In this document: positions 11,282 through 40,969 of the stretch, piece after piece
Position numbering within the stretch: the first letter of the stretch is position 1
Layout: each line of letters starts with the position of its first letter
Position numbers and translations under genes: made by a program
The notes under the pieces: generated by a model
Database searches by the model: none
What the model was told of the DNA's origin: nothing
The model's input: the letters and a program-made list of their open reading frames with translations, nothing else
DNA from: Bacteroidetes bacterium GWB2_32_14
Lineage (GTDB): Bacteria; Bacteroidota; Bacteroidia; Bacteroidales; UBA12077
Assembly (NCBI GenBank): GCA_001768235.1
Contig: MENK01000011.1
Span: forward strand, 35,461 to 86,380
DNA length: 50,920 nt
Reading direction: 5' to 3'

Positions 11282-12082
11282 TTATTCAATTATTTTAGCC
11301 GCGTTCGCGATCTTTGTCTTGTCGTTTTTTTGAAGTACTTCGCGTGCAAGGTTCAAGTAATTTACAGAACCTTTAGAAGCTGCATCGTATAAAACAACAG
11401 GTTTCCCGTAGCTAGGTGATTCGCTCAATTTTATGTTGCGTTGAACAATGGTTTCAAAAACCATATCCTGGAAATGTTTTTTTACTTCATCCACAACCTG
11501 GTTTGATAATCGTAATCGTGGATCGTACATGGTTAAAAGAAATCCCTCGATTTCGAGTTCTTTGTTAAGTCGTGTTTGAATAATTTTTATTGTATTAAGC
11601 AATTTCCCTAATCCTTCAAGAGCAAAGTATTCGCATTGTACCGGGATTATTACAGAATCAGCAGCAGTTAGTGCATTAACAGTTATTAATCCTAAAGATG
11701 GAGAACAATCGATTAAAATAAAATCATAATCGTCTTTAAATTTCTCAATTACACGCTTTAAAATATATTCCCGGTTAGGCTGATTAAGCATTTCTATTTC
11801 TGCACCAACTAAATCAATATGAGAAGGTATAAGATCCAATCCTTCAATATCGCTGTTTAAAATAATGCTTTTAGGATCGAGATCATCAACCAAACATTCA
11901 TAAATACTCGTTTTAATGGCCCTGATATCAAAACCCGTTCCTGATGTGGCATTAGCCTGAGGATCGGCGTCAACAATAATAACTTTTTTCTCGAGAACAG
12001 CTAAACTCGCTGCTAAATTTATTGCTGTAGTGGTTTTTCCTACTCCACCCTTTTGATTTGCTAATGCAATAACTTTTCCCAT
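11282..12082 (-). CDS. parA: Chromosome-partitioning ATPase ParA (Soj)
   Basis: ParA is a dimerising ATPase that binds the nucleoid and positions ParB-parS complexes. The 266-aa protein shows the deviant Walker A KGGVGKTT (residues 11-18), the A' motif VIIVDADPQANAT and Walker B FILIDCSPSLGLIT. The C-terminal region has VVDEVKKHF and RNIKLSESPSYGKPV. The short N-terminus lacks an HTH, which fits a chromosomal Soj-type ParA rather than a plasmid type Ia protein. It leads the parA-parB-DUF5683 group. Confidence 0.95.
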   Translation of the reverse strand: MGKVIALANQKGGVGKTTTAINLAASLAVLEKKVIIVDADPQANATSGTGFDIRAIKTSIYECLVDDLDPKSIILNSDIEGLDLIPSHIDLVGAEIEMLNQPNREYILKRVIEKFKDDYDFILIDCSPSLGLITVNALTAADSVIIPVQCEYFALEGLGKLLNTIKIIQTRLNKELEIEGFLLTMYDPRLRLSNQVVDEVKKHFQDMVFETIVQRNIKLSESPSYGKPVVLYDAASKGSVNYLNLAREVLQKNDKTKIANAAKIIE

Positions 12083-12324
12083 ATCTTATTTCGTTGTAAA
12101 TACTATGTTTATATTTAATAAATTTTGATTTTACAGGATTTCAAAAATACAATTTTAAACGCTTTTTATATTTGTGTTGAATAAGAATTGTAAACATTTT
12201 TATTGGAGTTATTAACAAATTATTAACAATTCTTTTTGTTTTTTATATCAATTCTCTATAAGCCAGTACTATTTTTTATTTAAAAAAATGTTTTATAGTT
12301 CATCCTGTTTTTTTGACTGAAGAA
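12083..12324. other. AT-rich gap upstream of parA
   Basis: This 242-bp stretch has no open frame of note. On the minus strand it carries TATTTTTG (plus-strand 12142-12149), which fits TAnnTTTG and could be the parA -7 element about 60 nt before the start. No -33 TTG sits at the right distance. The rest is A/T runs, including a TTATTAACAA-like stretch near 12210, and shows no convincing terminator for the upstream kinase gene. Confidence 0.4.
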
Positions 12325-13323
12325 TCATGAAAATTTCTCAATGGTTTCTTTTAAAAGTTGCGTTTTATCGATTGGTACCACGCCAACCTTTTCGCATACC
12401 AATCCGCCTGCCAGGTTTGATATCCCGGCAATAAGTTCGGCATTTAAACCCGATGCAAGACAAACACTCGCGATACTTATTATAGTATCTCCGGCCCCCG
12501 AAACATCTGCAATATCTCTTACCTCGGCAGGTATTGTTTTGTAGGATTTGTTATAACTAATAAAAACTCCTAACTCCGACAATGTTACTAAAAGATATTT
12601 TACTGATAATTCATCATGTAATTTCTCCGATGCCTTAAATACTCCGTCAAAATCTCCCTTTTTAATGTCAATTTTGGAACCTTCGACCAACTCCTTGAAA
12701 TTGGGTTTGAAAAGTGTAACATTCTTGTATTCAGAGAAATTTCTCTTTTTGGGATCCACCAAAGTTGGAATATTCTTCTTATTTGCAAATTCAACAATTT
12801 CCTTAATAACAAGAGGTGTAATGCACCCTTTATCGTAATCTTCAAATATGATTGCATTTACCTGTTTTTTCGACATTATTGATAAAATATGCTGAATAAA
12901 GGTTTTTTCAATTTTTTTATCGAGCTCGTGATCCACTTCTTCATCAACTCGTAATAAATGCTGGTTATTAGAAATAATCCTTGTTTTTACAGTTGTTTTT
13001 CTACTTTCGTCTTCCAGGATTCCCTCGCCTGATAATTTATTCTCTTTTAAAAGATTATAAAAGGATTTTGCTTTTGAATCTTTCCCGATAACAGCACAGA
13101 GAATAGGATTTGCACCGAGAGCCTGAACATTTAATGCCACATTAGCAGCACCGCCTAAACGATTTTCCTGTTTTGTACTCATAATTATTGGAACAGGAGC
13201 TTCGGGAGAAATACGGTTTACCTTACCCCACATGTACGAGTCGATCATTACATCGCCAATAATTAATATATTGAATTGGTTAAAAGATTCAAAAACAGTA
13301 TTAAAATTTATTTTCTCTGTCAT
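12325..13323 (-). CDS. rfaE1: PfkB-family kinase, heptose-7-phosphate kinase-like (RfaE1/HldE domain I)
   Basis: A 332-residue ribokinase-fold sugar kinase. The hallmarks are GDVMIDSYMWGKVNRISPEAPVP (residues 23-45, typical of RfaE/HldE), the N-terminal PfkB signature GGAANVALNVQALGA, FEDYDKG, and the C-terminal signature DVSGAGDT with its catalytic Asp. Enzymes of this type phosphorylate D-glycero-D-manno-heptose 7-phosphate at O-1 for ADP-heptose and LPS core synthesis. Only the kinase half is present; bifunctional HldE also carries a nucleotidyltransferase half. Substrate assignment rests on similarity to the RfaE1 branch, and another PfkB sugar substrate is possible. It has its own likely promoter. 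Confidence 0.8.
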   Translation of the reverse strand: MTEKINFNTVFESFNQFNILIIGDVMIDSYMWGKVNRISPEAPVPIIMSTKQENRLGGAANVALNVQALGANPILCAVIGKDSKAKSFYNLLKENKLSGEGILEDESRKTTVKTRIISNNQHLLRVDEEVDHELDKKIEKTFIQHILSIMSKKQVNAIIFEDYDKGCITPLVIKEIVEFANKKNIPTLVDPKKRNFSEYKNVTLFKPNFKELVEGSKIDIKKGDFDGVFKASEKLHDELSVKYLLVTLSELGVFISYNKSYKTIPAEVRDIADVSGAGDTIISIASVCLASGLNAELIAGISNLAGGLVCEKVGVVPIDKTQLLKETIEKFS

Positions 13324-32632: not shown

Positions 32633-33313
32633 TTATCCATTCTTACTAATTTTTTCAAGAGTATCTTTCTTTAAGATTGTTATTTCTTTACCATTAATTT
32701 CAATGATTTTTTCATTACTTAATTCGGAAAGAACCCTGGAAACACTTTCTCTTGATGTACCAACCATATCTCCAAACTCATTTCTTGTCAGTGGAAAATT
32801 AAACCGGGAATTATTGTAAATGGTTTCTGAAATACAAAGCAGGGTTTCTGCCACCAGGCCGGGAATCTGTTTCTGTGATTGACTCGTATATCGATGATAA
32901 TCTTTTAATTCGTTTTTACATAACTCAACTATTATTTCGTAAGCAAATTTGCCATTGCTGTATATAAAATTCCTGAAATAATTACTGTCTATAAAACAAA
33001 CACTTGTATCTTCAATGGCTGTTGCCGAGTATTGATTTATTTTATCGCCAAAAGTGATTGGTATTCCAAGATATGATGGCGCTTTAACAATCCTTAGTAT
33101 CTTCTCCCGTGTTGGCCCATGCATATGAACTTTTACAATACCTGTCCTGAGATATGCAACATTTAAAGATAATGCTCCCTCCTTAAATATATTCTCTCCT
33201 TTTTTAAAAATAACCTGTGCACTATTGCTTTCGAGAATATCAAATTCTTCTGTATTTAAGTTTTTTGCTGCAGCTGATTTAATCTGACAATCTTTACAAT
33301 GATGTTGTAACAT
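32633..33313 (-). CDS. Crp/Fnr-family transcriptional regulator
   Basis: A 226-residue regulator. The N-terminus has a Cys pair (HHCKDC, residues 6 and 9). It is followed by a cyclic-nucleotide-type sensor beta-roll (VIFKKGENIFKEGALSLNVAYLRTGIVKVH) and a long dimer helix. The C-terminal winged HTH is LTRNEFGDMVGTSRESVSRVLSEL. The recognition helix SRESVSR keeps the Arg-Glu...Arg set that lets E. coli Crp read TGTGA. Only two Cys are in an FNR-like position, so an iron-sulfur sensor is uncertain. It is divergent from the DsrE2-TusA genes with a perfect TGTGAT palindrome between them, so it is the likely regulator of that cluster. Confidence 0.9.
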   Translation of the reverse strand: MLQHHCKDCQIKSAAAKNLNTEEFDILESNSAQVIFKKGENIFKEGALSLNVAYLRTGIVKVHMHGPTREKILRIVKAPSYLGIPITFGDKINQYSATAIEDTSVCFIDSNYFRNFIYSNGKFAYEIIVELCKNELKDYHRYTSQSQKQIPGLVAETLLCISETIYNNSRFNFPLTRNEFGDMVGTSRESVSRVLSELSNEKIIEINGKEITILKKDTLEKISKNG

Positions 33314-33461: not shown

Positions 33462-33479
33462 ATGTGATATAAATCACAT
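33462..33479. promoter_or_regulatory. Crp/Fnr-type operator palindrome
   Basis: ATGTGAT-ATAA-ATCACAT is a perfect 18-bp palindrome with 7-bp half-sites. It contains TGTGA-N6-TCACA, the consensus for Crp-type proteins. Its centre (33470.5) is about 76 bp upstream of the predicted dsrE2 transcription start, a spacing compatible with class I activation, and about 30 bp upstream of the predicted start of the regulator gene. Confidence 0.75.
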
Positions 33480-33563: not shown

Positions 33564-34109
33564 ATGAATAACGAAATTGAAAACCAAATACTGGAATTAC
33601 AAAAAAAACTGGGGAAGCTTGAAAAAGGAACTAAAGATCAGTTATCTATGGTTGTTTTTTCCGGCGACCTCGATAAAATCCTTGCAGCAATGATTATTGC
33701 TACAGGAGCTGCTGCCTACGATATGAAAGTTAAGCTCTTCTTTACTTTCTGGGCTATTTCATCTCTCCGCGATCCTAGAAAATCAGTTTCAGGGAAAAAT
33801 TTTATTTCGAAAATGTTTGGTGTCATGTTGCCAAAGGGAAGAAACAAAATCAAACTTTCGAAAATGAACATGGCAGGCATGGGAACTGCCATGATTAAAG
33901 GATTAATGAGAAAACACAACGTGGCATCCCTTGATGATATGTTTAAAACCGCCGGCGAATTGGGTATAGAGATTAATATTTGTGAGATGTCGATGAATCT
34001 CATGGGATTTAAAGCAGAAGAAATGATCGACTATCCCCATATGAATATTTGTGGTGTTGCAACTTTTCTTGCCGACGCTTCCGAAAGTAAAGTTCAATTA
34101 TTTATATAA
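33564..34109 (+). CDS. DsrE2-family sulfur-transfer protein
   Basis: A 181-residue DsrE/DsrF/DsrH-like protein of the DsrE2 group. After a short helix (IENQILELQKKLGKLEKG) comes the conserved LSMVVFSGDLDKILAAMIIATGAAA, then KLFFTFWAISSLR. Two conserved Cys (Cys140 in INICEMSMNLMG and Cys163 in NICGVATFL) are candidates for persulfide carriage. DsrE2 proteins are often encoded with TusA and hdr-like genes and may be membrane-associated sulfur acceptors. It is 16 bp before tusA. Start ATG 33564 is chosen because the upstream GTG overlaps the promoter. Confidence 0.88.
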   Translation: MNNEIENQILELQKKLGKLEKGTKDQLSMVVFSGDLDKILAAMIIATGAAAYDMKVKLFFTFWAISSLRDPRKSVSGKNFISKMFGVMLPKGRNKIKLSKMNMAGMGTAMIKGLMRKHNVASLDDMFKTAGELGIEINICEMSMNLMGFKAEEMIDYPHMNICGVATFLADASESKVQLFI

Positions 34110-34125
34110 TTAATAAAGTAAAAAA

Positions 34126-34377
34126 ATGACTACAGAAGAATTAAAAAAAATTACAGCAAATCAAATAGTAGATGCACGGGGAACTGCCTGCCCGGGCCCT
34201 TTATTAGCTGCTAAAAAAGCAATTGGTGATATTGAATCAGGAGAAATTCTGGAGATTTTATCTTCAGACGAAGGTACAAAACACGATATTCCCAGATGGT
34301 GTGAAAAAATGGAACATGATTTTCTTGGAATACTTGAAGAAGACAGCTATTCAAGATTATTTCTTAAAAAAGCATAA
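34126..34377 (+). CDS. tusA: TusA-family sulfur carrier protein
   Basis: An 83-residue protein with the TusA core VDARGTACPGPLLAAKKAI. Cys22 of the CPGP motif carries the persulfide. The rest follows the two-layer alpha/beta fold (EILEILSSDEGTKHDIPRWCEKMEHDFLGI). TusA hands sulfane sulfur to partner proteins in tRNA thiolation, molybdenum cofactor synthesis or dissimilatory sulfur metabolism. Its place after DsrE2 and before an HdrA/Qmo-like set points to the last role. A strong terminator follows. Confidence 0.93.
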   Translation: MTTEELKKITANQIVDARGTACPGPLLAAKKAIGDIESGEILEILSSDEGTKHDIPRWCEKMEHDFLGILEEDSYSRLFLKKA

Positions 34378-34385
34378 TACATTAT

Positions 34386-34422
34386 CGGATAAATCAATAC
34401 TTTTTGATTTATCCGTTTTTTT
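34386..34422 (+). terminator. Strong intrinsic terminator after tusA
   Basis: A perfect 12-bp stem (CGGATAAATCAA paired with TTGATTTATCCG) with a 6-nt loop is followed by seven T. It lies about 10 bp after the tusA stop. The downstream hdr-like genes must be reached by read-through or have their own promoter. Confidence 0.88.
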
Positions 34423-34429
34423 AATCTTT

Positions 34430-34449
34430 TATCTATAATTATATAGATA
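34430..34449. promoter_or_regulatory. Dyad upstream of the Hdr/Qmo-like genes
   Basis: TATCTATA-N4-TATAGATA is an interrupted palindrome with 8-bp half-sites between the tusA terminator and the FlpD-like start. It could be an operator, but it is pure A/T apart from one C and one G, so chance is possible. Confidence 0.3.
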
Positions 34450-34482
34450 ATATAATATGTCGATGTGAAAAAATCCAACACT

Positions 34483-34911
34483 ATGGAAAAAGAAATTTTC
34501 AAACCAAAAATACTCGTTTTTTCTACTGATAAAATATCCGATCCGGGAATTGACCAGGCAGGATTAAGAAAAATTCATTACTCTCCTTCGGTTTATACCA
34601 TTAGCTTACCTTGTTCTTCCGGTATTAAACCAAAATGGATTATGCATGCTTTCGAAAAAGGATTCGATGGTGTATTTATTGCAGCAGACGGGCACGAGTG
34701 TTCCTATAGCCCAAAATGTGCCGAGTACACCAATAAAATTATACTTGAAGCCCAACTAATGATGAAAGAAAAAAATATAAGTCCTAAACGTATTCGAATG
34801 GCAGCCATTTGCTCTGTTTGTGCCGAACCATTTTCAAACCACATGGATAATTTCGGGAAAATACTCTCAGAATTAGGCAAAATTGGTGAGGATAAACAGA
34901 TAGCCGAATAA
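34483..34911 (+). CDS. FlpD/MvhD-like iron-sulfur protein, reduced Cys set
   Basis: A 142-residue protein of the methyl-viologen-reducing hydrogenase delta-subunit (FlpD/MvhD) family. SLPCSSGIKPKWIMHAFEKGFDGVFIAA matches the family core. It also has HECSYSPKC and AAICSVCAEPF. In MvhD the N-terminus has a CNWC-like pair followed by a [2Fe-2S] site; here that place reads FSTDKIS with no Cys. Five Cys remain (44, 73, 79, 110, 113). The family usually passes electrons to HdrA, and in QmoB it is fused at the C-terminus. It is 24 bp before the HdrA-GltD gene. ATG 34483 is preferred to GTG 34465. Confidence 0.8.
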   Translation: MEKEIFKPKILVFSTDKISDPGIDQAGLRKIHYSPSVYTISLPCSSGIKPKWIMHAFEKGFDGVFIAADGHECSYSPKCAEYTNKIILEAQLMMKEKNISPKRIRMAAICSVCAEPFSNHMDNFGKILSELGKIGEDKQIAE

Positions 34912-34935
34912 ATTCATAAATAGTTAGTAATTATT

Positions 34936-37680
34936 ATGTCACAAAACGATAAAATATTTGACTCATTAGTAATTGGAGGCGGAATAGCAGGGCAGGAAGC
35001 TGCATTAAGCTTAGCTGATATGAATCATCAGGTACTGCTTGTTGAAAAAGACCTTTCAATTGGTGGTAAAATGATACAGTTAAGTAAGGTATTTCCAACA
35101 TTGGATTGTGCTGCCTGTATTACAACGCCCAAAATGTCAGAAACAGCCCGTCATCCGAATATTACATTAATGTTAAACAGTGAAATTGATGGAATAAATA
35201 AAACGGATACCGATTTTCAGGTTAACATTTCAAATAACCCGCGATATATTATTCCCGAAGCATGTACTGGTTGTCAGCAGTGCGAAGTAGCATGTCCCGA
35301 AGTAAGAATGGATGAGTACAATGCAAACCTGGCAGGACGAAAAGTAGCATATATCCCATTTAGTTTAGCAAATCCACGAATTGCAACAATCGACAGGCAA
35401 GATATTTCGGCTCCGTGTATTAACGAATGCCCCGGTGGTGTAAAACCTTATGGTTACATCTCGCTTGTTCGAAACGGACAATATGATGATGCCATGAGGT
35501 TGCATCTCGAAGATATTCCTTTACCGGGAAGTTTAGGAAGAGCTTGTTATGCCCCTTGTCAGAATGAGTGTACACGTGCCACATTAGATTCAACCGTGGA
35601 TATCAGGAGAATTAAACGATTTTTTGCTGAAAACTACTACGATAAATTTCCTGAACCTGAAAAAACAGAAATCACTAGTAGATCAGGGAAAAAAGTTGCA
35701 GTAATTGGTTCCGGTCCTGCTGGATTAACTGCTGCTTATCATCTTGCATTAAAAGGGCACTCAGTAAAAATATTTGAAGCTGCACCTGTTTTAGGTGGTA
35801 TGTTAAAACTTACCTTGCCCGAATACAGGCTTCCAAAAACGGTTGTTGATCGCGACATAAAAAATATTACTGCACTGGGTGTTGAATTTGAAGTAAATAC
35901 TAAAATTGAAAATCTTACTAAACTTAAAGAAGAAGGTTTTGATAGTATTTTTATTTCTGTTGGAACACACGATACAAGCAAATTAGATGTTGAAGGTTCC
36001 GATTTGAAAGGAATTATTTCATGCCTTGATTTTTTAAGAGAAGCAAACATTGGACAGAAAGAAAATCTAAAAGGTAAAAAAGTAATGGTTATTGGTGGCG
36101 GGAACACCGCTATGGATGCATCACGAACAGCTTTACGACTGGGTGCAGAAAAAGTGACTGTAATTTACAGAAGAAGCAGAAGTGAAATGCCTTGCTTTAA
36201 ACCCGAGATTGACGAAGCAGAAGAAGAAGGTGTTGAAATAATGGTACTTCGCAATCCGATTCAGTTTTTTGGCGAGGATGGTATTCTTAAAAAGGTTCAG
36301 TTAATTAAAATGAAACTTGGCGAACCCGATCAGAGCGGAAGAAGAAGACCCGAACCCGTACCAGGTTCTGAATATATTGAAGATGTCGATTTTGTAATTG
36401 AGGCAATCGGTTTACAGCCATCAACATCCATGTTTGGCAACACAATTGAAATTAAAAAAGGCGGAACCATAAAAGTAAACGAAACTACTTTACAAACATC
36501 GGTTGAATCTATTTTTGCAGGTGGCGATTCTGTTACTGGTGCTTCAACTATTATCGAAGCTGCCGGCCAAGGCAGGAAAGCTGCATTTTATATTGATAAA
36601 TATCTTCAAAACTTACCTTTAAATAATTATGTGTTTGGTGATAAACTTCCTGCAATTGATAAAAATAAAGTGCTTGAAAGAGGAACTTTTAAACTTATTC
36701 CACAGGTTGATCCCAAATTTAGAAGCATACATGAACGTATTCAGGACTTTAAAGATGTTGAATTAACACTTAGCGAAGAAGAAGTTCTTTTAAGCACAAA
36801 CCGATGTCTGGATTGTAGTAACTGCCGCGAATGCCATCAGTGTATATCGGCTTGTCCTGCAAATGCAATAGACTTTTCGCAAAAGAAAGAAATTGTTGAA
36901 ACCAATGTAAGATCTGTAATTGTAACTACAGGATTTAAATTATTTCCACCATCAGGAAAACCAGAATACGGATATACAAAATATCCAAATGTAATTGATT
37001 CTATGCAAATGGACAGGTTAATTGCTCCTACCCGGCCATTTAACAATGTATTGCGCCCCGGTGATGGAAAATCACCCGACAATATTGCTTATGTTTTGTG
37101 TACCGGATCACGCGATTCTGCTATCGAAAACAGCAGTTGCAGTACCGAATGTTCAAATAATCCTATTTGTTCGCAAATCTGTTGCATGTACTCAATAAAG
37201 CAGGCACAGCTTTTAATGGGTGCTTTGCCAATGGCTGACATTACAATCTATTACATGGATATCAGAGCTTTTGGAAAAGGATATGAGGAATTCTTCCAGC
37301 AATCCAAATCCATGGGAGTGAATTTTGTGAAAGGGAAAGTAGCCAAAATAAGAGAAAAAGATGATAACAGCGGAGATCTTATTTTACGTTACGAAGATGT
37401 TACCAGTGGAACAATAAAAGAATCGAAACACGATTTAGTTGTTTTATCGGTTGGCGTACTTCCAAATAAAGAAATTCCACAGATGTTTAAAAACGAGAAG
37501 CTGGAACTTGATGAATTTAATTTTGTAAAACAACTTGATGAGCTGGTAAGCCCATCGTTAACAAGCATAAAAGGAGTTTTTGTTGCTGGTGCAGCTTCGG
37601 GACCAAAAGATATTCCCGATTCCATTTTATCAGCCGGATGCGCTGCATCTGAAGTTGCAGTTTATCTAAATAAAGTTTAA
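34936..37680 (+). CDS. hdrA: HdrA-like flavoprotein with an embedded GltD-type NAD(P)H module
   Basis: A 914-residue flavo-iron-sulfur protein. An HdrA-type FAD fold starts at GGGIAG (14-19), with the HdrA motif TLDCAACITTPKM, and a [4Fe-4S] site C110/113/116/120. Residues 155-560 or so are a complete GltD-like module: Cys161, 165, 204, 208 and 212, FAD motif GSGPAG (258-263), NAD(P)H motif GGGNTA (387-392) and AGGDSVTGASTIIEAAGQGR. The HdrA part then resumes with a Cys-rich cluster (C624-C640, CRECHQCISACP), VTTGF, CTGSRD and CSQICCMYSIKQA. This would let NAD(P)H electrons enter an HdrA flavin, possibly for bifurcation. It sits between the FlpD-like and second HdrA genes. Confidence 0.9.
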   Translation: MSQNDKIFDSLVIGGGIAGQEAALSLADMNHQVLLVEKDLSIGGKMIQLSKVFPTLDCAACITTPKMSETARHPNITLMLNSEIDGINKTDTDFQVNISNNPRYIIPEACTGCQQCEVACPEVRMDEYNANLAGRKVAYIPFSLANPRIATIDRQDISAPCINECPGGVKPYGYISLVRNGQYDDAMRLHLEDIPLPGSLGRACYAPCQNECTRATLDSTVDIRRIKRFFAENYYDKFPEPEKTEITSRSGKKVAVIGSGPAGLTAAYHLALKGHSVKIFEAAPVLGGMLKLTLPEYRLPKTVVDRDIKNITALGVEFEVNTKIENLTKLKEEGFDSIFISVGTHDTSKLDVEGSDLKGIISCLDFLREANIGQKENLKGKKVMVIGGGNTAMDASRTALRLGAEKVTVIYRRSRSEMPCFKPEIDEAEEEGVEIMVLRNPIQFFGEDGILKKVQLIKMKLGEPDQSGRRRPEPVPGSEYIEDVDFVIEAIGLQPSTSMFGNTIEIKKGGTIKVNETTLQTSVESIFAGGDSVTGASTIIEAAGQGRKAAFYIDKYLQNLPLNNYVFGDKLPAIDKNKVLERGTFKLIPQVDPKFRSIHERIQDFKDVELTLSEEEVLLSTNRCLDCSNCRECHQCISACPANAIDFSQKKEIVETNVRSVIVTTGFKLFPPSGKPEYGYTKYPNVIDSMQMDRLIAPTRPFNNVLRPGDGKSPDNIAYVLCTGSRDSAIENSSCSTECSNNPICSQICCMYSIKQAQLLMGALPMADITIYYMDIRAFGKGYEEFFQQSKSMGVNFVKGKVAKIREKDDNSGDLILRYEDVTSGTIKESKHDLVVLSVGVLPNKEIPQMFKNEKLELDEFNFVKQLDELVSPSLTSIKGVFVAGAASGPKDIPDSILSAGCAASEVAVYLNKV

Positions 37681-37715
37681 GTCATTAGTTGAGATTATAT
37701 CAAAATAGAACAAAA

Positions 37716-39914
37716 ATGAAAGAAAGAATAGGCGTATATATTTGTCATTGTGGTGGGAATATTTCCGATTATGTTGATGTGGAAGAAATTGGAAAAATGC
37801 TTAAAACCGATGATGGCGTTGTAATTTCGAAAGATGTCATGTTTGCCTGTGCCGATTCCAATCAGAAAGACATGATTAGTGATATTAAAGAATATAAACT
37901 TGATGCTATTGTAGTTGCATCGTGTTCTCCCAAGCTGCATTTGCATACATTTAAAAATGTAGCCGATCGTGCCGGACTAAATCCCACAAATTATGTTCAG
38001 GTAAACATTCGCGAACAATGTTCGTGGCCACATTCCGACAAGCCAAGAGAAGCATCGGTAAAAGCAGCAGGTTTAATCAGAGCAGGAATTAAACGAGTAG
38101 CTTATTCCGAATCGTTGGACAATATCGAAATAAATGTAAAGAAAGCCGTTTTAGTAGTTGGTGCAGGTGTTTCAGGAATGAAAGCAGCAATTGACCTTGC
38201 CCGTTTAGGTAACGAAGTTTATTTAATTGAAAAAGATTATTTTGTTGGTGGCCATATTACTCAAACAGAAAATCTCTTTACTACCGGACAGAACGGAAAA
38301 GAAATAGTTTCGAGATTGTATGCCGAATTAAAAAGCTATAATAACATTACCCTTTTTACAGGAGCTACAGTTGAGAAAGTTTCGGGTAGTCTCGGAAATT
38401 TTGCTGTAGATGTTCGTGTTAAACCACGATTTATTAATGGGAAAGCTGATTTGCAGGCAGTACAAAACGCAATGAATGATTGTACTGTTCTTGTTGATGA
38501 TGATTTTAATTTTGGTTTTACAAAGCGCAAGGCAATTTATAAAAATTACCCCGGAGCATTACCCGATGTTCCTGTTGTAAATGCTGATGCACTTAGAAAC
38601 GAGAAGGACTTTTTAGATAAACATGCTTCATGCCTTGATTTAAATCAACAAGATGAGATTTTATCTCTTACTGCCGGTTCTGTTTTAGTAACAACCGGAT
38701 TCGATTCATATCAACCTAAAGATGGTGAATATGGATATAAAACCTTTTCGAATGTGGTAACATTACCTGAGCTAAACAGGTTAATTGAGTTAAATCCTGA
38801 AAAACTAATCTATAACAATAAGCCAGTTAAAAAAATAGCATTTATTTATTGTGTTGGTAACAGGCAAACAAAAGGAGAAAACAAGTATTGTTCTCGTCAA
38901 TGTTGCTCTTCGGCCATAAATTCTTCGTTACAACTTGCTGATAAGTACAAAGGAATGGCTGCTTTTCATCTTTTCAGAGATATCAGAACGTATGGAAAAC
39001 AGGAATTGATGTACGAGAAATCATCAAAACAAGGCGATATTTATATCCGTTTCGATGAAAAAGAACCTCCGGTTGTTGAGCAGAATGGAAAATCAATAAA
39101 CATAAAGGTTAAAGATTATCTGACATCAAAAAAAGAATTAGAAATTGAAGCCGATTTGGTTGTATTGGTTACCGGAATGGTTGCCCGTGATGATAGTAAA
39201 CAAATATCAGAGAAGTTTAAAATTCCAATTGGTACCGACAAATTTTTCAATGAGATTCACCCAAAACTCAAACCTGTTGAAACCGTAATCAAAGGAGTTT
39301 ATATCGGAGGTTCTTGCCAGGGGCCAAAGAATATAAGTGAATCGATACAATCATCACTTTCTGCCGCATCTAAAATTAATGCTTTATTAAAAGGAGGAAC
39401 AGTTTCACTCGATCCTGTAATTGCACGTGTTAATAATGATGCATGTACATGGTGCGGAAAATGTGCTGAAGTATGCGAATATACTGCAATAAAAGAAATT
39501 GAATCAGGGGATAAACATATTGCTACAGTAAATAAAGCAATTTGTACAGGATGTGGAATTTGTGCACCTGTATGCCCTGTAAATGCAATTGAAATTGCCC
39601 AGTTTACCGATAATGAAATTGAATCGATGATTGATGGTTTTATGGAAAAAATCGACTTGAAAGTAAGAGAAAAAGAAAGCGAATCAACAGAAGAAGTTTC
39701 CGGAGTTAAGATGAAAGAATATCCTCAACTATGGAAAAATATTTTAGGAACCATGAATGGCAGTAAATTGACAATCCCTGAAATAGCTGAAAAGATTGGG
39801 GTTGATAAAGAAATTGTTACATACCATGTGATGACTATGCATAAATACAATGTTGTTGTAACAGAAGGTATGGATAAGAAAGAGTTGTATTATTATTATA
39901 AATTGAAAAACTAA
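37716..39914 (+). CDS. HdrA/QmoB-like flavoprotein with C-terminal winged-helix-like domain
   Basis: A 732-residue HdrA-type subunit. The N-terminus GVYICHCGGNIS and ASCSPKLHLHTF, REQCSWPH are standard HdrA Cys regions. The FAD fold starts LVVGAGVSGMKAAIDLA (near residue 145). YCVGNRQ with CSRQCCSSAI, and GGSCQGPKNISESIQSSLSAA follow. Two ferredoxin clusters are near the end (CTWCGKCAEVC, CTGCGICAPVCPVNAI). The last 67 residues or so (39711-39911) look like a winged helix: KLTIPEIAEKIGVDKEIVTYHV, then VVVTEGMDKKELYYYY. It probably works with the preceding HdrA-GltD and the following membrane subunit. ATG 37716 is used. Confidence 0.88.
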   Translation: MKERIGVYICHCGGNISDYVDVEEIGKMLKTDDGVVISKDVMFACADSNQKDMISDIKEYKLDAIVVASCSPKLHLHTFKNVADRAGLNPTNYVQVNIREQCSWPHSDKPREASVKAAGLIRAGIKRVAYSESLDNIEINVKKAVLVVGAGVSGMKAAIDLARLGNEVYLIEKDYFVGGHITQTENLFTTGQNGKEIVSRLYAELKSYNNITLFTGATVEKVSGSLGNFAVDVRVKPRFINGKADLQAVQNAMNDCTVLVDDDFNFGFTKRKAIYKNYPGALPDVPVVNADALRNEKDFLDKHASCLDLNQQDEILSLTAGSVLVTTGFDSYQPKDGEYGYKTFSNVVTLPELNRLIELNPEKLIYNNKPVKKIAFIYCVGNRQTKGENKYCSRQCCSSAINSSLQLADKYKGMAAFHLFRDIRTYGKQELMYEKSSKQGDIYIRFDEKEPPVVEQNGKSINIKVKDYLTSKKELEIEADLVVLVTGMVARDDSKQISEKFKIPIGTDKFFNEIHPKLKPVETVIKGVYIGGSCQGPKNISESIQSSLSAASKINALLKGGTVSLDPVIARVNNDACTWCGKCAEVCEYTAIKEIESGDKHIATVNKAICTGCGICAPVCPVNAIEIAQFTDNEIESMIDGFMEKIDLKVREKESESTEEVSGVKMKEYPQLWKNILGTMNGSKLTIPEIAEKIGVDKEIVTYHVMTMHKYNVVVTEGMDKKELYYYYKLKN

Positions 39915-39919
39915 CTGTA

Positions 39920-40969
39920 ATGGCAAAAGTAAATCCTGAATTTGCTACTGAAATTAAAAAATACGGAGCTCACGACTTTAATGCTTGTTTTAATTGTGGA
40001 AATTGCACAGCAACCTGCTCGCTTTCTGACAATACCAATTCATTTCCCAGAAAACTGGTAAGGTATTCGGTTCTTGGTTTGGAAAGTGAAATTGAAGCAT
40101 CTCTTGATCCCTGGTTATGTTATTATTGTGGTGAATGCTCAACAACTTGTCCCCGCGAAGCAAACCCGGGTGAATTGATGATGTCTTTACGTAGATGGTT
40201 AACGGCTAAATACGATTGGACAGGACTTTCGGGTTTATTGTATAAATATCTTCCATTTACCATTTCTGCATTCCTTGCTACAGCTTTAGCCGTAATTCTA
40301 TTTGCTTTTTCAAAGAGCTTTGAAATTGAAACCATTATGCATTTTGGCCATCAGTTCGAAATGTGGGCTATAATTAGTGTTTTTACTATAATCTTAATTC
40401 CGAATCTTGCCCGTATGTGGTGGTTTGTAATATTAAAACCCAAGATAAAAGTAAAATTCTTAACTTATGTAAAGGGAATGCAAGAACTATTTACGCACAT
40501 GTTCACCCAAAAAAGAACACTCGGATGCGATGATAGTCAGTCACGTTGGTTGATTCATTTAATAATTGTTTTTGGATACCTGTCGTTGCTATTCACAACA
40601 GTTGTTCTCGATTGGTTTGGAACAAGCAGTTTATTTATAATCTTACTTGGTTATGCTGAAAGTATAGTATTGTTTACCCTTACTTTTATTTTTGTAAGAG
40701 GCCGAATAAAGAAAAATAAAGAATTAAATAAGTTTTCGCAACCATCAGACTGGCTGTTTGTAATCTGGTTGTTTCTAATGGCATTTTCTGCATTTTTAGT
40801 ACGAATATTTATCGATTTGGATTTAATTGAAACCAATTTGTGGTTGTATCTTTTTCACCTGACAATATTGGTGCAATGGGCTGTACTTATTGTCCCTTTT
40901 GGTAAATGGACACATTTCTTGTATCGTTCGTTTGCAATGTATTTTGAAAAAATTAAACAAACTGCATAA
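39920..40969 (+). CDS. qmoC: QmoC-like membrane subunit (HdrC ferredoxin fused to cytochrome b-like domain)
   Basis: A 349-residue protein. Two HdrC-type [4Fe-4S] clusters lie at the N-terminus (Cys23, 26, 29, 33 in ACFNCGNCTATC; Cys67, 70, 73, 77 in LCYYCGECSTTCPRE). Five or six membrane helices follow, from about residue 107, with several His placed for heme b (HFGHQFEMW, HLIIVFGYL, LFHLTILVQW, KWTHFLY). This arrangement is that of QmoC, which links the Qmo complex to the menaquinone pool. Function as an electron path between quinol and the Hdr-like subunits is inferred. It starts 5 bp after the second HdrA gene. Confidence 0.87.
   Translation: MAKVNPEFATEIKKYGAHDFNACFNCGNCTATCSLSDNTNSFPRKLVRYSVLGLESEIEASLDPWLCYYCGECSTTCPREANPGELMMSLRRWLTAKYDWTGLSGLLYKYLPFTISAFLATALAVILFAFSKSFEIETIMHFGHQFEMWAIISVFTIILIPNLARMWWFVILKPKIKVKFLTYVKGMQELFTHMFTQKRTLGCDDSQSRWLIHLIIVFGYLSLLFTTVVLDWFGTSSLFIILLGYAESIVLFTLTFIFVRGRIKKNKELNKFSQPSDWLFVIWLFLMAFSAFLVRIFIDLDLIETNLWLYLFHLTILVQWAVLIVPFGKWTHFLYRSFAMYFEKIKQTA

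Follow-up and report, generated by a model that had tools for sequence, protein, structure and literature searches.

We describe here a gene block of Bacteroidetes bacterium GWB2_32_14, a member of the Bacteroidales, that encodes two sulfur carriers, an FlpD-like protein and three Hdr/Qmo-like redox proteins next to a divergent Crp/Fnr regulator gene, and that may serve the reduction of protein-bound sulfur. The window, that is the whole stretch of DNA analysed (50,920 nucleotides of contig MENK01000011.1, here G000:C11:35461-86380), belongs to a genome of 3.66 Mb in 36 contigs that is 98.95% complete. The features lie as follows, in positions of the window:

32633-33313, minus strand: crp/fnr regulator gene, 226 amino acids, divergent from the dsrE2-like gene
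33463-33478, strand not applicable: operator TGTGATATAAATCACA, between crp and dsrE2
33564-34109, plus strand: DsrE2-like sulfur carrier, 181 amino acids, by profile matches, with one invariant Cys
34126-34377, plus strand: TusA, 83 amino acids, by profile match, with Cys22 of the CPGP motif
34483-34911, plus strand: FlpD/MvhD-like protein, by profile match, with five invariant Cys
34936-37680, plus strand: QmoA/HdrA-like flavoprotein with a GltD module, 914 amino acids
roughly 35401-36795, plus strand: GltD/NfnB/StnC-like, predicted NADP(H) module inside QmoA (about residues 156-620), by alignment and fold
37716-39914, plus strand: QmoB-like HdrA, 732 amino acids, matching HdrA2 profile positions 1-643
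about 39654-39911, plus strand: predicted winged-helix domain at the C-terminal end of QmoB, from a structure model and an ArsR-like helix-turn-helix in a homologue
39920-40969, plus strand: QmoC-like protein with an HdrC domain and a membrane domain, by profile match and conserved Cys and His

The first-pass annotation had proposed this arrangement, with DsrE2, TusA, FlpD, two HdrA proteins and QmoC in one block and a Crp/Fnr gene running divergently next to it, and the open reading frames (ORFs), coordinates and families agree with it. The DsrE2-like protein matches DrsE_2 (E 2.9e-48) and lies under the cut-off of the NCBIfam DsrE2 equivalog NF047629 (61 vs 210 bits), while the TusA and FlpD family matches have E values of 6.6e-22 and 4.9e-27, FlpD being present in a single copy in the genome. 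The GltD-bearing QmoA matches PRK12771 (E 5.6e-149) and HdrA2 (E 8.7e-133); the second, QmoB-like HdrA, which has TTG at 37689 as an alternative start, matches HdrA2 (E 3.5e-172), and the QmoC-like protein matches the qmoC model (E 1.4e-41) with 143 bits, under the equivalog cut-off of 300. Queries for AprA, AprB, HdrB, DsrC, SQR and YeeE gave zero matches within the window, which was the whole search space for AprA and AprB, and siroheme sulfite reductase (NIR_SIR), searched in the whole genome, was found nowhere, so that the genome has no DsrAB. The claimed absence of HdrB, DsrAB and AprAB from the window is thereby borne out, and HdrB-type CCG proteins are present elsewhere in the genome, on contigs C1 and C17.

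In an initial set of 59 genomes (the window's own and relatives) the block was found in 18, nine with a GltD-bearing QmoA, the window included, and nine with a plain QmoA of about 432 amino acids, some of these blocks being cut off where a contig ends. Named genomes were scanned with an FlpD alignment, which confirmed at least 502 FlpD relatives, the best 80 of which were kept; these loci are mostly from Bacteroidales, including Paludibacter, Petrimonas, Proteiniphilum, Marinifilum and Draconibacterium, with a few labelled Spirochaetes, Deltaproteobacteria, Proteobacteria, Actinomycetota, Chlorobiota, Krumholzibacteriota and UBP1, and the closest named relative among the matches listed is Bacteroidetes bacterium GWA2_31_9b (FlpD 94%, L057). 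Gene neighbours in these 80 loci were counted by tblastn wherever the flank sufficed. TusA lies upstream of FlpD, within the limit of 1.5 kb, in 71/71 loci and a DsrE protein in 65/71, the misses (L130, L131, L133-L136) being among the most distant loci, and a divergent crp gene is present in 41/64. Among the 55 loci with 6.3 kb of downstream flank, QmoA and QmoB each follow FlpD in all 55, QmoC in 53 and HdrB in the other two, with the winged helix in 53 and the GltD insert in 50. An FlpD of the block type, scoring over 200 bits, is present in 36 of 197 genomes of the order. Its recurrence across many families shows that the block is not a chance arrangement, and the objection that its genes might not stay together in relatives fails. 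Variants and extensions were counted in a set of 100 loci, the 80 named ones and 20 others, of which 96 have block-type FlpD; many of them end at contig ends, and near-copies (L032/L057, L033/L063) are counted apart.

The QmoA protein had been taken for an HdrA-GltD fusion. Both parts do lie in one protein; however, alignment with plain homologues reveals an internal insertion and rules out a simple gene fusion: GltD follows the first [4Fe-4S] motif of QmoA's inserted ferredoxin domain, QmoA resumes just ahead of the second, and all Cys of both motifs are kept. GltD is carried by 62 of 80 QmoA rows (rows had to fall within set limits of length and identity), which also excludes a chimeric assembly of a single genome. 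A quick maximum-likelihood tree of the 80 block rows and two outgroups, with the insert columns removed, needs three changes of the insert trait, a number that 0/500 shuffles reached, and the plain QmoA of L060, L065, L066 and L074 are nested within the GltD-bearing clade; judged by this tree, on which the outgroup branches are very long, the putative NADPH module has come or gone no fewer than three times within a redox subunit that is itself conserved. In the PDB, the insert comes closest by sequence and fold to NfnABC (9n5u, 9bov) and StnC (8oh5), with 39-42% identity. The structure models rest on few sequences (25 and 18), have mean pLDDT values of 76 and 75 with low confidence in several iron-sulfur (Fe-S) segments, and were used only for the fold of the insert and for the C-terminal winged helix. 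The nucleotide motif of the insert is GGGN[TVS]A in 62/62 fused rows, GGGNTA in the window. By the rule given for type III HdrA, where this motif separates NADP from NAD and GXGXXG stands for NAD (PMC12054007), the insert would therefore use NADP(H), and StnC is NADPH-oxidising (PMC10482914).

The winged helix, for which the window's own QmoB copy gave no Pfam match, forms the C-terminus of QmoB in most loci and is a separate gene of about 88-98 amino acids in the main plain-QmoA clade. The separate copy of L045:12813-13079 is an ArsR-like helix-turn-helix by Pfam, and in the plain loci L060, L065, L066 and L074 the helix is still attached to QmoB.

Conservation of Cys and His was counted only in ORFs matching the window-type query at 45% or more. 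Eight Cys and four His are invariant in QmoC (34 rows), where two [4Fe-4S] clusters and two haems b are expected. TusA Cys22 is invariant in 57 rows, C140 is the one invariant Cys of the DsrE2-like protein (61 rows), and five Cys are invariant in FlpD (72 rows). In QmoB (59 rows) the N-terminal part, the thioredoxin-reductase-like part and the C-terminal ferredoxin part each keep their Cys sets, while no window Cys is conserved in residues 111-388 (numbering from 37689), the region of HdrA's inserted ferredoxin, in the same rows. The pair Glu356/Lys409 of M. thermolithotrophicus HdrA marks bifurcating flavins (PMC9430772), and its equivalents were placed by aligning QmoB to 5odc_A and QmoA to 8rvv_A, with QmoB rows counted from a match of 38% upwards. 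In QmoA the Lys is kept in 80/80 rows and the Glu position is Asp or Glu in 80/80 (Asp in the window), whereas in QmoB the Lys is absent in 61/61 (His 42, Tyr 11, others 8) and an acidic residue stands in 8/61; both positions are Asn in the window's QmoB, and one canonical QmoB and one hydrogenase-linked homologue retain both residues. By these residues the QmoA flavin looks bifurcation-competent and the QmoB flavin changed in role, and the latter, having no bifurcation Lys, may be the substrate site. A rather unlikely extension of this is, for anaerobic Bacteroidota, a dedicated complex of sulfane-sulfur respiration in which the QmoA flavin bifurcates or confurcates the electrons of NADPH and menaquinone and the QmoB flavin reduces the TusA/DsrE2 persulfide; QmoB is proposed as the persulfide-reducing site because the Lys is lost in all rows, the acid in most, and the inserted-ferredoxin Cys are not conserved.

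The same residues bear on a NADPH:menaquinone oxidoreductase, possibly bifurcating, that would serve redox balance, with sulfur carriers that only mature or regulate the complex. The retained QmoA pair and the NfnB/StnC-like insert would suit such an enzyme, as would locus L164:5003-13194 of a Bacteroidales metagenome-assembled genome (G229), where HdrA-QmoC-HdrA-FlpD stands beside a Vhu-like [NiFe] hydrogenase, below the cut-offs of the models, with a related QmoC (53% identity) and no TusA/DsrE match among the listed ORFs; L164 is a possible hydrogen-to-quinone complex. The linkage of TusA in every one of the 71 loci speaks against a subsidiary role of the carriers, as do the rhodanese, YeeE, DsrC or SQR genes that some loci have close to the block, and we consider this explanation fairly improbable. 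G229 holds two further related systems, a block with HdrB (L129) and an AprBA-QmoABC locus (L162) whose aprA, aprB and qmoC lie over their cut-offs; FlpD/HdrA/QmoC modules are thus joined to different partners, and the constant partner of the block is the sulfur relay.

The operator TGTGATATAAATCACA is the genome's only perfect match to TGTGATNNNNATCACA, and sites with at most one mismatch to this 16-base pattern number nine in the genome vs two for a reversed-pattern control. The eight others are imperfect; seven fall within ORFs and the eighth (L172) between a pair of unrelated ORFs, and a broad Crp regulon is excluded on these grounds. The core TGTGA-N6-TCACA is present in 30 of 38 crp-dsrE intergenic regions, some of which are near-copies, and 20 mononucleotide-shuffled controls gave no palindrome common to more than two sequences. 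Downstream of the core, 18 of the 30 regions have a TAnnTTTG box, which we take to be the Bacteroidota -7 element, and the other 12 have no such box; the operator centre lies 62 bp from the start of the box in 16 of the 18 (window included), 61 bp in one and 82 bp in one, and the 62-bp spacing suggests activation from an upstream site. The regulator has R188, E189 and R193, presumably the recognition-helix residues of the CRP type, and its C6, C9 and C106 are invariant among the 51 rows aligned at 40% identity or more; given the three invariant Cys, the sensing of redox state or sulfur by this Crp/Fnr-family protein is possible.

The reading that we prefer, although with slightly less than even confidence, is that a membrane-anchored, NADPH- and menaquinone-linked complex of the Hdr/Qmo type reduces sulfane sulfur bound to TusA/DsrE2 to sulfide, its role in the cell probably being electron disposal by sulfur reduction. 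Sulfane sulfur from elemental sulfur or polysulfide would be held as persulfide on TusA/DsrE2; NADPH would reduce the FAD of the GltD insert, whose [4Fe-4S] clusters would pass electrons to the QmoA ferredoxin domain and flavin; FlpD and QmoB would relay the electrons, QmoC would link the complex to the menaquinone pool, and sulfide would be released from the carrier persulfide. A complex coupling NAD(P)H, quinone and a sulfur substrate had been suggested in the first-pass annotation, and this holds in part: a conserved Bacteroidota block does link TusA/DsrE carriers to a Qmo/Hdr-like complex in which those Fe-S and haem ligands that were looked at are conserved, an NADP(H)-type module is present, and DsrAB is lacking. 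The sequences establish which genes there are and in what order, the cofactor ligands, the NADP-type motif, the optional nature of the insertion and the operator; that TusA/DsrE2 touch the complex, that it works reductively and on this substrate, and that NADPH and menaquinol cooperate, by confurcation or bifurcation at QmoA, we infer. 

We favour reduction because the complex is linked to the sulfur carriers and DsrAB is lacking, because some relatives add an import line or DsrC/DsrK-like extensions, and because of the phenotype of Petrimonas sulfuriphila. The conserved active-site Cys of TusA and DsrE2, the conserved Fe-S and haem ligands, the NADP-type motif and NfnABC/StnC kinship of the insert, and the occasional replacement of QmoC by an HdrB-like protein speak for it too. 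The gene dsrA is over its cut-off in 0/197 genomes of the order, among them the 36 with block-type FlpD, so that the co-occurrence with dsrAB raised at the outset is nil and DsrAB-type oxidation to sulfite is unavailable. YeeE and a Porin_O_P-type gene adjoin the block in 10/100 loci, together with rhodanese-domain proteins (tested by Pfam in L037), and a DsrK/HmcF-like protein with a cysteine desulfurase is found at 9/100 loci, 8 of these 9 having DsrC; the window block has neither extension. The line at L037:3370-8733 runs TusA-YeeE-rhodanese-rhodanese-Porin_O_P-rhodanese-rhodanese, a possible route of sulfur import from the outer membrane to the cytoplasm. P. sulfuriphila, a fermentative member of the Bacteroidales, reduces elemental sulfur (S0) to H2S, and Petrimonas sp. 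IBARAKI, which carries the block (L096), has a 16S rRNA 99% identical to that of P. sulfuriphila and came from black, sulfide-containing colonies (PMC5940944).

Several points weigh against this reading. YeeE (PF04143) is missing genome-wide, leaving the window genome with no import line, and 18 of the 80 QmoA rows are without the NADPH module. The Petrimonas link concerns one genus, with phenotype and genome from different strains, and the Petrimonas crp-dsrE2 region has no perfect operator core; in the omics paper on Petrimonas mucosa, heterodisulfide, thiosulfate and TusA are not mentioned. Three molybdopterin oxidoreductases, one beside a ferredoxin-type protein (L149), make a further sulfur reductase possible in the window genome. 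On its own, menaquinol is too weak an electron donor to reduce S0, so that QmoC might work in either direction. Finally, type III SQR, sulfide-oxidising by annotation, occurs in 41 of the 197 genomes of the order, in 16/36 of those with block-type FlpD vs 25/161 others (Fisher p 4e-4, uncorrected for phylogeny and so ignoring the relatedness of the genomes), and this co-occurrence with sqr, also raised by the first-pass annotation, fits sulfide oxidation as well.

An oxidative direction, in which sulfane sulfur made by SQR would pass through DsrE2/TusA and be oxidised in the manner of sHdr, with electrons going to menaquinone and NADP+, appears distinctly unlikely to us. Beyond the co-occurrence, it can draw on an operon of the window genome (L138:9207-11879, G000:C35) that encodes type III SQR (660 bits vs a cut-off of 525), DUF1641, DsrC/TusE and DsrE2 and is divergent from another Crp/Fnr gene (12015-12710). 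The region upstream of this operon has no perfect operator core. Within the block locus itself SQR III of this type is present in 5/100 loci, Marinifilum L064 among them, and DsrE/TusA relays have been proposed to feed oxidation in other bacteria (PMC13293266). On the other side stand the lack of HdrB in the window genome's block and of NIR_SIR genome-wide, and SQR III over the cut-off is missing in 20 of the 36 genomes with block-type FlpD. Sulfur oxidation by sHdr uses HdrB-type subunits and a lipoate-binding protein, and HdrB is absent from the window. A role in selenium metabolism, raised by YedF/SclA-like matches and by the SQR model being named 'selenoprotein subtype', is ranked low.

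The end module of the block varies, as HdrC-like and HdrB-like proteins replace QmoC in 4/100 loci (G007, G002, L129 and L130), with the CCG domain confirmed on the HdrB-like protein of G007. The HdrB family reduces disulfides in methanogens. The substrate could also be a protein or low-molecular disulfide or trisulfide, for example of the DsrC type, to which TusA/DsrE2 only hand sulfur on. This variation, the DsrC genes at the loci with DsrK/HmcF-like proteins, and the one DsrC-family protein of the window genome, with its single C-terminal Cys, point that way; yet neither DsrC nor HdrB was matched in the window, and true DsrC has a second C-terminal Cys, which the genome's copy does not have, so that we regard such a substrate as very unlikely.

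Qmo-like complexes without Dsr or Apr, GltD-inserted HdrA and TusA/DsrE relays are each known, and searches of the open-access literature, mostly at the level of titles and abstract openings, did not find their union in Bacteroidota. In canonical QmoABC, which is linked to AprBA, the FlpD domain is fused to QmoB, whereas the block has a separate FlpD gene and no AprA or AprB in the window. Block proteins are 26-31% identical to those of the AprBA-linked QmoABC of G229, and the canonical QmoC there scores 394 bits vs the 143 with which the block QmoC fails the equivalog cut-off of 300 while keeping the dihaem and [4Fe-4S] ligands. The loss of the bifurcation residues in QmoB, the GltD insert and the TusA/DsrE2 linkage are further differences, and identity with canonical Qmo is ruled out by the sub-cut-off QmoC, the lack of AprBA in the window and the separate FlpD. 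The two HdrA-like subunits and the HdrC-dihaem membrane subunit are shared with type I QmoABC of sulfate reducers and with type II Qmo, the latter likened to the block by its published description only (PMC10504309), and Qmo-like complexes without Dsr or Apr are known from the same source. HdrABC has a CCG-domain HdrB in the complex, unlike the block of the window.

GltD-inserted HdrA is known as type III HdrA of ANME-1 and Bathyarchaeota (PMC12054007) and from the methylene-tetrahydrofolate (THF) reductase cluster of Moorella (PMC9430772), with the same insertion at the ferredoxin domain as in the 62 fused block rows. Type III HdrA, as described, has HdrA1-like N-terminal Fe-S and C-terminal ferredoxin domains, both lacking in the block QmoA (the plain form aligns only to HdrA 142-558 of 643), and the NAD-type GXGXXG in place of the block's motif; in contrast to both relatives, the operon of the block also encodes sulfur carriers and a quinone subunit. 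The NADPH module of StnC/NfnABC (8oh5, 9bov, 9n5u) is joined to NuoG-like domains, whereas that of the block is embedded in HdrA. TusA/DsrE relays have already been described (PMC13293266, PMC12998232), and the YTD (YedE-TusA-DsrE) cluster (PMC8780430, PMC13293266, PMC12998232) shares TusA and DsrE with the block and YeeE with some of its relatives; the block differs in its coupling to a Qmo-like complex and in relatives with rhodaneses and a Porin_O_P protein, and the genome-wide absence of YeeE rules out a YTD cluster.

Other Hdr-like genes were seen beside these systems. A second cluster of the window genome (L146:6806-11751, G000:C17) encodes HdrC-like, CCG (HdrB-like) and HdrA-like proteins, a further Fe-S protein, a membrane protein that has no Pfam match but looks DsrM-like by eye, and another protein containing two CCG stretches, and similar genes adjoin the block in L034 and L073. 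HdrA proteins of 1466-1481 amino acids with a GltD stretch are encoded at L040:3770-8212, L041:8472-12917 and L051:9859-14259, whose MTHFR-type FlpD was left out of alignment A1; in L040 the neighbours are a MetF that exceeds its cut-off and, judged by eye, an HdrC-like protein and a possible HdrB-like one, an arrangement that resembles the Moorella Hdr-type methylene-THF reductase. In the Actinomycetota-labelled L130:9234-9965, TusA bears an N-terminal ArsR-type helix-turn-helix domain.

We know of no enzyme that has been assigned to the reduction of S0 by P. sulfuriphila. The block is a concrete and widespread candidate for S0 reduction in Bacteroidales, with at least 502 FlpD relatives, and having its own operator and regulator it is directly testable. 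If persulfide is indeed reduced at the QmoB flavin, the complex would differ as a sulfur reductase from Psr, Nsr, MBS and DsrAB. An optional NADPH module, combined in one operon with an end module that can be exchanged between the quinone and the HdrB type, illustrates the re-wiring of Hdr/Qmo systems.

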